DNA from: Methylocapsa sp. D3K7
Lineage (GTDB): Bacteria; Pseudomonadota; Alphaproteobacteria; Rhizobiales; Beijerinckiaceae
NCBI RefSeq assembly: GCF_029855125.1
Contig: NZ_CP123229.1
Span: forward strand, 868,001-932,000
Direction: 5' to 3'
Length of the DNA: 64,000 nucleotides
Shown: in pieces, positions 12,334-16,208 of the stretch
Position numbering within the stretch: position 1 is the stretch's first letter
Layout: the number at the start of each line of letters is the position of its first letter
The notes under the pieces: model-generated
The model's database searches: none
What the model was told of the DNA's origin: nothing
What the model saw: the letters and a program-made list of their open reading frames with translations, nothing else
Position numbers and translations under genes: made by a program

Positions 12334-14583
12334 ATGGCGGACGAGACGGAGCACACGGGACCAGCGGCACCGCCAGACGCCGCCGCAGGTGACACAGCTC
12401 CCGCCCCCGACGAGCCGCCGCCACTTCCGGCGACGGCAATGGCCTTCGCTGGCACGGCAAAGGATCTCCAGGCGCTGCGCGACGCCGTGGTTGATGCCGC
12501 CAGTGTCGGCGCGGGACTGTGGTTCAGCTATCTCTTTGTGCTGCTCTACCTTCTCATCGCGGTTGGCGGCGTCACCCATCGCGATCTTTTCCTGCAGAGC
12601 CCCGTCAAGCTGCCGTTCCTCAATGTGGACCTGCCGCTGCTCGGCTTCTTCTGGCTCGGCCCGCTCATTTTCCTCATCGTGCATGCCTATGTGCTTTTGC
12701 ATTTCGTCTTGCTCGCGGGAAAGGTCGGTGATTTCGACACCGAGTTACGAGAGCAGATCCCCGACGAAGACGTGCGACGGCGCCTGCGCCGCCAGCTGCC
12801 GAGCAACATCTTTGTGCAGTTTCTGGCCGGATCGCGCGAGGTGCGCACTGGCGTCATGGGTTTCATGCTGCGGCTGATCGCCCAGATCAGTCTCGTCATC
12901 GGCCCCATCGCGCTGCTGGTCTTTTTCGAGCTTCAGTTCCTGCCCTACCACGATTGGGCGATCACCTGGTGGCACCGGATCGCTGTCCTGGCCGACATCG
13001 TGCTGTTGTGGTTGCTATGGCCCTCCATCGCGCGCGGCGAGACGGCACGGTTAGGGTGGCGCGACTTGCAGCGCGCCAAGATCTGGATACTGGCTTTCGC
13101 AAGCCTTGCACCGGTTCTCCTGGTCACTGCGATCGCAACCTTCCCAGGCGAATGGGCTCAGAACAACCTGCCATCGCTACGATTCATCCCGTGGCCAGAC
13201 GAAAGGGGACGCTGGTTTTCCCCGCATGAGCTGCTGGTTGCTGGCGAGGTCGATCTTGCCGCCCGCAAGCCAAAAAGCCTTTGGTCGAACCGCCTCGTTC
13301 TGCCGGGCTTTGACGTGATCGACCACACCAAATTCGATACCGAGGCAAAGATCGAGGCGCTTCCGGAAACCATCTCTCTTCGCGCGCGCCATCTTGAAGG
13401 CGCGGTGCTGATCGGTGCGAAACTCAGGAAAGCAGATTTTACTTCTGCGCGACTCCAGGGCGCGCGACTCGATGGCTCGGACTTGCGGAATGCAAGGTTC
13501 GAGTGCGACGACCGGGGCAGTGCCGAACCGCAATGCGCCCAGCTCCAGGGCGCATCGCTCAACGGCGCTCAGCTTCAGGGCGCGTCGCTCGACGGCGCCC
13601 AGCTCCAGGACGCCCGGCTCCTCGACGGCGTGCAGCTCCAGGGTGCATCGCTCAAGGGCACCAAGCTCCAAGGCGCGTGGCTCGTAGGTGCTCGGCTCCA
13701 GGGCGCGTCGCTCGATTACGCTCAGCTCCAGGGAGCGCAGCTTAATTTCGTGCAGCTTCAAGGCGCGTCGCTCACGAGCGCCGAGCTCCAGGGCGCGTCG
13801 CTTGATGGCGCCAAGCTCCAAGGCGCGTCGCTCAATTGGACGCAGCTTCAGGTCGCGTCGCTCAAGGTCGCGTCGCTCGATGGCGCCTACCTGCAGAACG
13901 CGCAGCTCCAGGGCGCGCAGCTCGACCGCTCAGATTTGCGGGGCGCAAACTTCGAGTGCGACGTGATCCGTCCAGAACCGCTCCAATGCACACGGCTCGA
14001 GGGCGCGTCGCTAAAACAAGTGTTCGCATGGCGAGCCGACGCTCGAAGGGCGGAAATCTGGGGCGCACGCGTCGCCGATCCGGAGACCGGCCAAAAATAC
14101 CTATGTGAGAAAAACGGCGACCCATCCGCCTGCGACTGGTCGGCTGAATCGTTCGATGAGCTTAGGCGACTTATCACTGACAAAGTTCCCGAAGGCGAGA
14201 AGCGGCGCGCCGCCATGGAAAGGATCGCACAAAGCCTTGATCCATCGAAGCCCATGGAAGGAGAAGACGAAATAGCGAGGTTTTGGGAAGATCAGGCACA
14301 CTCTTCCGTTGCCCATGAAGACTACGAAAAGCGCCTCGCCAGAGTTTGGCGCGAGACAGGCTGCGCCGAAGAAGGGGCACCTTACGTGCTTCGCGCCTTT
14401 CTCGGCCGTTTGGAAGTCTCCTGGGATTCCCCGTTTGACGAGCAAAGCCCGCACCTTCCTGCCCTCGCCGCCACCTTCCTCGACGAGGCGCATTGCCCTG
14501 GCGCGAATGGGCTCACTGACGCCGAGAAGGCAAAACTCAAAGCAATCCGCGACCGCCCGCTGACGCCTGCGCCGAAGCCGTGA
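12334..14583 (+). CDS. Integral membrane protein with pentapeptide-repeat domain
   Basis: A 749-residue protein of unknown function. A Pro/Ala-rich N-terminus is followed by about five membrane helices within residues 55-275. A pentapeptide-repeat domain covers about 345-560; its core is made of near-identical decapeptides of the form LQGASLxxAQ, which should fold as a right-handed quadrilateral beta-helix. Similar segments with two Cys each, DLRxAxFECD...EPxQC, frame the array (about 382-402 and 533-553). The last 190 residues are charged, helical and unassigned. The start has only a weak GGGGGAC upstream. The helix count and topology are estimates by eye. Confidence 0.8.
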   Translation: MADETEHTGPAAPPDAAAGDTAPAPDEPPPLPATAMAFAGTAKDLQALRDAVVDAASVGAGLWFSYLFVLLYLLIAVGGVTHRDLFLQSPVKLPFLNVDLPLLGFFWLGPLIFLIVHAYVLLHFVLLAGKVGDFDTELREQIPDEDVRRRLRRQLPSNIFVQFLAGSREVRTGVMGFMLRLIAQISLVIGPIALLVFFELQFLPYHDWAITWWHRIAVLADIVLLWLLWPSIARGETARLGWRDLQRAKIWILAFASLAPVLLVTAIATFPGEWAQNNLPSLRFIPWPDERGRWFSPHELLVAGEVDLAARKPKSLWSNRLVLPGFDVIDHTKFDTEAKIEALPETISLRARHLEGAVLIGAKLRKADFTSARLQGARLDGSDLRNARFECDDRGSAEPQCAQLQGASLNGAQLQGASLDGAQLQDARLLDGVQLQGASLKGTKLQGAWLVGARLQGASLDYAQLQGAQLNFVQLQGASLTSAELQGASLDGAKLQGASLNWTQLQVASLKVASLDGAYLQNAQLQGAQLDRSDLRGANFECDVIRPEPLQCTRLEGASLKQVFAWRADARRAEIWGARVADPETGQKYLCEKNGDPSACDWSAESFDELRRLITDKVPEGEKRRAAMERIAQSLDPSKPMEGEDEIARFWEDQAHSSVAHEDYEKRLARVWRETGCAEEGAPYVLRAFLGRLEVSWDSPFDEQSPHLPALAATFLDEAHCPGANGLTDAEKAKLKAIRDRPLTPAPKP
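13530..13925 (+). repeat. In-frame 30-base tandem repeats in the pentapeptide gene
   Basis: About a dozen units of 30 bases encode the LQGASLxxAQ decapeptides, each carrying a variant of CTCCAGGGCGCGTCGCTC. The units are close to identical at DNA level. This points to recent expansion by slippage or unequal crossover. One unit near 13615-13630 has an extra codon, and the phase shifts by a pentapeptide near 13855-13875. Confidence 0.85.
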
Positions 14584-14909
14584 CACGCATACCTTCAACA
14601 CGCCGGTAGGGTCATCACCAGGCAAAAACAGGCGCAAAACGGGAGACGTCGCCGGCACGAATTTTGCTTATCGCGCGATCTTACGTCTCTCAAGCCATTG
14701 GGCGTATCTCCCCTTGTAAGGTTTTCGACGCCAATCGTACCAAACCGTTTCACGTGAAACATTTTGGTACGATTGAGGGCCACGACCAATCGAAACGCGC
14801 GCTATGATTTTCGTGTTCCGCGTCTCGTGCCGCCGGTTTCTTGACCGGACATCATGAAGTAAGTGGGAAGGGGCCGTGTTCTTTTCCGGGCGTGCGCGGA
14901 CAAAAACTT
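14584..14909. other. Intergenic interval carrying the parS-like palindrome
   Basis: 326 bases between the convergent pentapeptide-repeat gene and murA. Apart from the palindrome at 14732-14775 I see no gene or terminator with a clear T-run. Confidence 0.5.
14732..14775. promoter_or_regulatory. parS-like centromere site inside a 44-base palindrome
   Basis: GTTTCACGTGAAAC (14747-14760) is a perfect 14-base palindrome. With its flanks it matches 15 of 16 positions of the bacterial parS consensus TGTTTCACGTGAAACA, the binding site of the CTP-dependent clamp ParB. It is framed by a perfect 13-base inverted repeat, CAATCGTACCAAA at 14732-14744 and TTTGGTACGATTG at 14763-14775, with exactly the same centre. 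The whole is symmetric at 40 of 44 bases. The match to parS is seen; ParB binding is inferred from the family. parA/parB are not in this window. Confidence 0.8.
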
Positions 14910-16208
14910 TTAGGCGCGGTCAGTAAGCCGCTCGATCATGGCGCCGCAGGCGCCAAGCTTCTCCTCGATATGCTCGAAGCCGCGATCAAGATGATAGACG
15001 CGATTGACCGTTGTTTCCCCTTCGGCCGCAAGGGCCGCGATGACGAGCGACATGGACGCGCGCAGGTCCGTCGCCATGACCGGTGCGCCTTGCAGCTCAT
15101 CGACTCCTTCGACCACCGCGGCGTCGCCATCAAGCTTGATATGTGCGCCCAGGCGAACCAGTTCCTGAACATGCATGAACCGGTTTTCAAAAATGGTCTC
15201 GGTGATCCGCGAGGACCCTTTGGCCTTGGTCATCAAGGCCATGAACTGGGCTTGCAAATCCGTCGGAAAACCGGGAAATGGCGCGGTGGCAATATCGACC
15301 GGTAAAAGTCCCCTGCCGTTGCGCCGCACGCGAAGTCCTTCATTGGTGGCGGATATTTCCGCACCGGTTTTTTCGATGGCTTCGATCGCGCTTTCCAAGA
15401 GAGTTGGGCTCGCGCCTTCCAGCATCACATCACCGCCGGCCATCGCGACCGCCATCGCGTAGGTGCCAGCTTCGATGCGGTCAGGCAAAACCACATGGCG
15501 CGCGCCGGAAAGACTGCCAACGCCCTCGATCTCGACCGTGGACTGACCTGCACCTTTGATTCGCGCCCCCATTTTGATAAGGCAATCGGCAACATCGACG
15601 ATCTCCGGCTCGCGCGCCGCGTTGTGAAGCACTGTATGGCCCTTTGCAAGGGAAGCGGCCATAAGCGCGGTATGGGTACCCCCGACTGTCACTTTTGGAA
15701 AATGGATCTCGGCGCCGCTCAGCCCCTTTGGCGCCTTGGCTTGCACATAGCCAGCCTCGATCTCGATCACCGCCCCAAGCTTCTCAAAAACCATGAGGAG
15801 AAGGTCGACGGGCCTTGTGCCTATCGCGCAACCGCCGGGGAGGGAAACCTTGGCCTCGCCCATCCGCGCGAGAAGCGGCGCGATGACCCAAAAACTCGCC
15901 CGCATCCGGGAGACGAACTCGTAGGGAGCCGTGGTATCGACGATCTGGCGTGCGCTGAGATGGAGAGCACGGCTGGCGCGCGCGGGAGCACCCGGGCGCC
16001 GGCCATCGATCGAGTGATCGACACCATGATGACCGAGAATACGTAGAAGCATGCCTACGTCCGCGAGATCGGGAATATTCTCAAGGGTTAAAGTCTCATT
16101 TGTAAGGAGCGACGCGATCATCAGCGGCAGGGCCGCGTTCTTCGCGCCAGAAATTCTTATAACGCCATTTAATTTTTGGCCGCCGACGATACGTATCCGG
16201 TCCAACAA
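14910..16208 (-). CDS. murA: UDP-N-acetylglucosamine 1-carboxyvinyltransferase MurA
   Basis: MurA makes the first committed step of peptidoglycan synthesis: enolpyruvyl transfer from PEP to UDP-GlcNAc in the cytosol. The 432-residue product has normal length. The N-terminus holds the substrate-binding SGAKNAALP (Lys23, Asn24). The catalytic, fosfomycin-sensitive cysteine is present at about residue 127 in [13 protein letters not shown]. The late segment [10 protein letters not shown] is also typical. It stands alone, unlike in many Rhizobiales where murA precedes a DUF2948 gene and hisD; here hisD-UPF0262 lies 38 kb away. Confidence 0.98.

Follow-up and report, generated by a model that had tools for sequence, protein, structure and literature searches.

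A parS core within a near-palindrome between two convergent genes

We analyzed a 64,000-nucleotide stretch of DNA (the window, G000:C1:868001-932000) from a source genome, G000, whose chromosome is a single contig of 4,151,390 bases. Within the window, a pentapeptide-repeat gene on the plus strand and murA on the minus strand converge on the 44-base near-palindrome CAATCGTACCAAACCGTTTCACGTGAAACATTTTGGTACGATTG, which is self-reverse-complementary at 40 of its 44 positions; its two arms are 22 nt each and 91% complementary. At its centre lies the 14-mer GTTTCACGTGAAAC, flanked by a perfect 13-base inverted repeat. Because the site falls between the ends of the two genes it is intergenic, and in these respects (near-palindrome, inverted repeat, non-coding position between convergent genes) the sequence agrees with the initial annotation. 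The near-palindrome is itself the central part of a longer unit that has a 29-bp inverted repeat on each side, laid out as follows.

12334..14583, plus strand: pentapeptide-repeat protein, 749 aa; the gene ends 130 bp ahead of the element
14714..14742, no strand: left 29-bp inverted repeat, TTGTAAGGTT-N9-AATCGTACCA, matching TTGTMMGRTTN{3,12}AAYCKKACMA at G000:C1:882714-882742
14732..14775, no strand: near-palindrome of 44 bases, 40 of 44 symmetric
14743..14746, no strand: left 4-bp spacer, an offset shared by 122 of 124 well-formed arms, with 2 one base closer
14747..14760, no strand: parS core GTTTCACGTGAAAC, 61 exact copies in the genome
14761..14764, no strand: right 4-bp spacer, from the offset analysis of arms
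14765..14793, no strand: right 29-bp inverted repeat, more degenerate, read by eye and unmatched by the strict pattern; its inner half-site TGGTACGATT is intact and its outer half degenerate (GACCAATCGA)
14910..16208, minus strand: murA (EPSP synthase family); the gene end lies 116 bp from the element

The closest named relatives of this murA come from Beijerinckiaceae and Hyphomicrobiales, in a comparison from which the source record and its nearest neighbors were possibly excluded.

The core is repeated some sixty times in a composite unit

Searching the genome for the 14-mer and listing its flanks, as the initial annotation had proposed, revealed 61 exact copies of GTTTCACGTGAAAC in the 4.15-Mb chromosome against 0.009 expected from base composition, a number far beyond chance. 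A reversed control pattern gave 0 copies, and allowing one mismatch gave 62 places. Of the 61 copies, 60 were read with their flanks (58 dispersed and 2 native), and nearly all the dispersed ones carry arms: by a strict nine-letter match, 50 of 57 have two arms, six have one and one has none, and the 58th has two arms by eye.

When the copies are aligned on the core, information reaches background just past 40 bases from the centre, and the unit is therefore approximately 80 bp long. It consists of a 29-bp inverted repeat, 4 bp, parS, 4 bp and the mirrored repeat, where the repeat reads TKGTNNGRTT-N9-AAYCNNACMA and begins 4 bases from the core. Not every copy is complete: some have a single arm, and some a degenerate one. 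In several one-armed elements (L133, L134, L135, L153, L165, L248, L260) the armless side abuts a recurring RTTTGG-NN-ATTAT-like stretch followed by TTGAC, which by eye we guess to be perhaps the promoters of the next gene; in L135 such a stretch is also fused straight to an arm with no parS core between them.

The dispersed core matches the native parS pair, and ParB retains parS-reading residues

The dispersed core is letter for letter the same as both native parS sites of the G000 chromosome, bearing out its description as a perfect parS-type palindrome. The native pair (2224457 and 2224740) lies between mnmE and mnmG, clustered with parA and parB, and lacks the 29-bp arms. Near it, a 746-aa open reading frame (L114:10068-12308) resembles by eye the pentapeptide-repeat protein of the window.

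In G000 and G003, a different, TTTAGAA-N3-TTCTAAA-like palindrome sits 2–3 bases from the native core (L114 7458 and 7741, L257, L183), and G010 has a similar one between its two native cores. Searching by pattern revealed none beside 29 cores of 16 genomes that lack dispersed elements. A reading of the TTTAGAA flank of native sites as an iron-box (Irr) was considered and dropped, as a literature search lent these letters no support.

A ParB protein search found one chromosomal-type ParB in G000, with all three ParB domains present, while three other ParB_N matches lie inside DNA-methylase genes. Residues were numbered by matching our alignment to those named in PMC7383237, where R173 and G201 are among the parS-contact residues of ParB. 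Relative to Caulobacter ParB (6t1f), the G000 protein keeps Q162, G170, K171, S172, R173, N178, G201 and R204; positions 179 and 184 hold S and R, respectively. With the parS-reading residues kept, binding of this ParB to the dispersed cores is expected from its sequence.

The arms resemble protein half-sites

From 302 half-sites in six genomes we kept 124 arms in which both 10-mers were present and at least 14 of 16 fixed letters matched. The offset from the core was identical in 122 of these and one base closer in 2 (three offsets tried). The variable NN pair, which played no part in choosing the arms, is mostly AC, CC or AA, and its two halves within one arm were equal in 32 of 124 cases as opposed to 33.0 after shuffling. 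This lack of covariation fits protein half-sites more than a base-paired hairpin or stem.

Comparing the left and right inner arms of an element, the variable letters matched about as often as expected by chance in G000 (28/50 versus 26.6), G005 (6/14 versus 5.8) and G006 (10/12 versus 9.2), with an excess in G003 only (10/12 versus 5.9, P 0.007). Pooled over genomes the matches numbered 58/92 versus 38.1, an excess that can stem from arm types differing between species. At the inner NN of well-formed arms, AC predominates in G000 and G003 (GGTAC type), and CC predominates in G005, G006 and G012 (GTCC type). The suggestion in the initial annotation that the site might extrude as a cruciform thus finds weak support, in the G003 excess, against chance-level matching in the other three genomes. 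Its suggestion that the arms may serve a second protein fares better, as the arms genuinely recur with the unit and have a pattern consistent with this idea; they are best read as putative sites of a second, hypothetical protein. In many G012 copies the 29-bp repeat occupies one side of the core, and the other carries a TTTAGAA-N3-TTCTAAA-like palindrome like those beside the native parS sites of G000 and G003.

Copies are scattered along the whole chromosome

We mapped 57 of the 59 dispersed copies. Their distances from native parS fit a uniform distribution (KS P 0.59), the middle half of the chromosome arms holds 32 of the 57, and the gaps between copies show no greater regularity than random placement would give (CV 0.90, P 0.30). 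Copies are mildly scarce close to native parS, with 3 within 300 kb where 8.2 were expected (P 0.027 at the most marked of the four limits tried), and are not depleted at the opposite pole, with 9 within 300 kb against 8.2 expected. The reported site itself lies 1.34 Mb away from native parS, which is 65% of the distance to the opposite pole. GC skew, sampled at the loci examined, puts the origin near 2.1–2.35 Mb, as compared with 0.87–0.93 Mb for the window. Distance, even spread and skew all argue against the site as a marker of an origin-proximal region, which is how the initial annotation had read it. That annotation had also held that random occurrence of the 14-mer without clustering near the origin would speak against a parS site. 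The spread is indeed even, but it is not a random scatter, since the copies share arms, context and partly their position across species.

A chromosome-wide spread of this kind could reflect a Noc-like system, in which ParB or an unseen partner uses the dispersed sites to link the nucleoid with division-site placement and not for segregation; Noc sites likewise resemble parS and are recognized by a protein of the ParB family (PMC7383237). We consider this improbable: the core is that of parS and not of a Noc site, the G000 ParB has R173 and G201 and not the Noc residues, and copies are not depleted opposite the origin. Nor did the ParB search and the ParB_N matches reveal a Noc-type paralogue in G000, as the one chromosomal ParB is accompanied only by matches in methylase genes.

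Gene context came from a simple gene caller based on codon usage, with 26 open reading frames of the window as its training set. By this measure 27 of the 57 dispersed sites lie between tandem genes, 22 between convergent and 2 between divergent genes, 5 lie within a predicted gene and 1 is of unknown context, whereas intergenic sequence in the window comprises 5232 bp tandem, 2034 bp divergent and 554 bp convergent. Of the 52 sites outside genes, 42 have a 3' end as their closest predicted gene end. Relative to the intergenic supply, these counts indicate that divergent promoters are avoided and gene ends favored.

Closeness to gene 3' ends also raises the idea that the unit is chiefly a gene-end element (a terminator or RNA hairpin) or a regulator's operator, with the parS-like core as its middle. 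The transcript of the reported element does fold better than shuffles (z -2.54). However, neither a T-run, examined at the reported site only, nor an Rfam match was found there, and we rejected an intrinsic terminator at that site for want of a hairpin followed by a T-run. Together with arm halves that do not covary and a core that is letter for letter native parS, this makes a gene-end role or an operator improbable as well, slightly more so than a Noc-like system.

The elements are confined to part of one genus

Across 15 genomes of the genus, GTTTCACGTGAAAC occurs 61 times in G000, 47 in G012, 42 in G006, 29 in each of G003 and G005 and 14 in G010, and exactly twice in each of the remaining nine. 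Elsewhere in the order we counted 0–5 copies per genome in 296 other genomes, from an evenly drawn sample of 297 that included G000 and no other genus member. Two genomes of the same family (G195 and G293, genus g9) carry five copies on several contigs, a pair and three singles, as against the usual one or two. The 29-bp repeat pattern is present in G000, G003, G005, G006 and G012 and once in G001, and is absent from G010 and eight others of the 15 genus genomes searched. Draft genomes undercount the cores because Ns and contig ends fall within these palindromes: several G005 cores contain Ns, and contigs of G003 and G005 end inside cores (L293, L296, L297, L299-L303, L305). We found no match to the element in a plasmid collection or in viral contigs, and on these grounds rejected spread by plasmids or viruses.

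The initial annotation had suggested comparing the murA interval in related genera. In G006, whose murA is 92% identical over 345 aa, the reported site has a counterpart downstream of that gene: a parS core that keeps a single arm, the other having been replaced. The exact core is absent from all 80 murA loci of other species (L016-L095).

Positions are partly conserved and cores partly spoiled

We compared the 57 dispersed elements of G000 with those of its relatives: 23 of the 42 exact copies of G006 (picked by one flanking base), 20 of 29 in G005, 19 in G003, 6 in G010 and 29 in G012. Counting a neighboring gene as shared when identity was 55% or more across 100 aa or more, we obtained 31 pairs of a G000 element and a relative's element with a common neighboring gene. 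The gene has the same orientation to the core in 31 of 31 pairs and a similar distance from it in 28, covering 22 of the 57 G000 elements, and in 19 pairs its 3' end faces the core.

Core identity within these pairs arises by construction, exact cores having served to select the loci in the relatives; a search that starts from the arms (exact 13-mer) is a fairer test of core conservation. Of 51 places in G000 with an exact 13-mer arm, 47 retain the core exactly and one carries it with two mismatches, the remaining three being arms that stand alone; both arms are exact in just 13 of the 47. At least two G000 cores are spoiled, one by two mismatches (1318469) and one by an internal deletion (1656662). 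Arm-found elements of G003 have an exact core in 10 of 18 determinable cases and a spoiled one in 8, with two more cut by contig ends; in G005 the core is exact in 10 of 12, and 7 more are hidden by Ns or contig ends. Allowing up to two mismatches, we counted 58 cores in G003 (29 exact, 14 in the reversed control), 51 in G005 (29 and 14), 65 in G006 (42 and 5), 22 in G010 (14 and 4) and 64 in G012 (47 and 3). The count exceeds the sum of exact and control matches in all five relatives, and therefore spoiled cores exist there. G000 has thus preserved its cores very well, and those of its relatives are spoiled in part, most clearly in G003.

Spoiled cores bring in the main rival explanation, namely that a REP/BIME- or MITE-like repeat captured a native parS site and spread, ParB binding being incidental or mildly harmful and the copies now decaying. 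Such a selfish repeat would account for 8 of 18 determinable G003 cores being spoiled, for the excess of one- and two-mismatch cores in all five relatives, for confinement to one clade and a mostly extragenic location near gene ends (3' end nearest in 42 of 52), and for one-armed and mosaic copies such as those of G012 with a native-type left flank and a repeat right flank. It sits poorly with the rarity of core-less exact arms in G000 (3 of 51) and with positions partly common to several species. Target-site duplications at the unit ends, a mark of MITEs, numbered 0 of 57 (k=4, shift 0). A PF01797 search likewise revealed no REP-type transposase with arms beside it: matches occur in only three of the six carriers (G000, G003 and G006) and in 0 of the 9 other genus genomes, the flanks examined contain no arms or cores, and the one intact copy from G000 that was tested belongs to the IS200/IS605 transposases, so mobilization by a Y1/RAYT transposase was rejected. 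Altogether, we regard a selfish repeat as possible but somewhat unlikely.

A candidate chromosome-wide set of composite ParB sites

The reading we prefer, at about even chances, is that the elements together make up composite ParB sites dispersed over the whole chromosome, with arms that a second, hypothetical protein would bind. In its favor we count the excess of exact copies and their even spread, the fixed offset and lack of covariation of the arms, the positions shared with relatives, the G000 cores that stay exact where arms often do not, and the single chromosomal-type ParB with its parS contacts. This one canonical ParB would load at the dispersed cores as at the native pair, so that, in place of one origin-linked ParB complex, both chromosome arms would carry numerous places where ParB, and probably SMC, loads. 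With less certainty, a second dimeric protein would bind the TKGTNNGRTT half-sites flanking the core on both sides and would limit or tune the sliding of ParB clamps from dispersed sites, while the armless origin pair would keep a special role in ParA-driven segregation. Spoiled cores, above all in G003 (10 of 18 exact), count against this composite set, as does the cost of extra mid-arm parS in Caulobacter described next. A selfish origin and a later function are compatible and not exclusive.

In Caulobacter, a second parS cluster is tolerated mainly within approximately 500 kb of the native one, plus a small zone near the terminus, and is disfavored mid-arm (PMC5815017). On this basis, the 57 dispersed sites should be harmful if ParB acts on them as usual. 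Dozens of mid-arm copies would then mean either that ParB and SMC load chromosome-wide, or that the arms or ParB have changed such that the sites are tolerated. A bolder version, which we put forward tentatively and think rather doubtful, is a polycentric (holocentric-like) chromosome: ParB would load at about 60 composite parS sites on both chromosome arms, the second protein, bound to the paired repeats, would fence its clamps, the origin pair would remain dominant for ParA, and the dispersed sites would organize the chromosome, for example as SMC loading points.

Scatter over the whole chromosome in place of origin clustering is very unusual. The position of parS is considered tightly restricted, extra mid-arm sites being costly in Caulobacter (PMC5815017), and the reason for parS clustering has been raised as an unanswered question (PMC7333895). 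A natural lineage with dozens of identical sites chromosome-wide, alongside sister species with only two, amounts to a ready-made experiment on parS clustering. Binding of ParB to the dispersed sites would make them a distributed bacterial centromere. Were ParB not to bind them, some factor, possibly the arms, would have to exclude it from perfect parS sequences. The element makes long-standing questions of bacterial chromosome segregation testable.

Comparison with known systems

REP/BIME sequences are short extragenic palindromic units, often near gene ends, with two inverted arms around a centre. The element described here is likewise an extragenic palindromic repeat in many copies (5 of 57 within a predicted gene), but its centre is parS, no RAYT gene lies beside the arms (PF01797 only), and its approximately 60 copies occupy positions partly common to species.

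In Firmicutes, Noc-binding sites (NBS) occur across the chromosome, as do the sites of G000. Both are parS-like palindromes; a protein of the ParB family binds NBS (PMC7383237), and one is predicted to bind here. Unlike NBS, the G000 sites have a parS core and show no shortage opposite the origin, and no Noc protein was found in this genome. The G000 ParB has R/S/R/G at positions 173/179/184/201, where Noc has Q/K/K/R (PMC7383237).

Chromosomal parS of ParABS systems has core and machinery in common with the element: the 14-bp core is identical, a native pair accompanies parAB, and ParB carries parS-type residues. In titles and abstracts we found no published precedent for chromosome-wide dispersed parS, and the highest known numbers are 20–23 sites, near the origin (PMC7333895). 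In contrast to the clustering at the origin that marks chromosomal parS, the 57 mapped copies of G000 are dispersed (KS versus uniform P 0.59), and the roughly 60 copies along this chromosome mostly lie between paired 29-bp inverted repeats.
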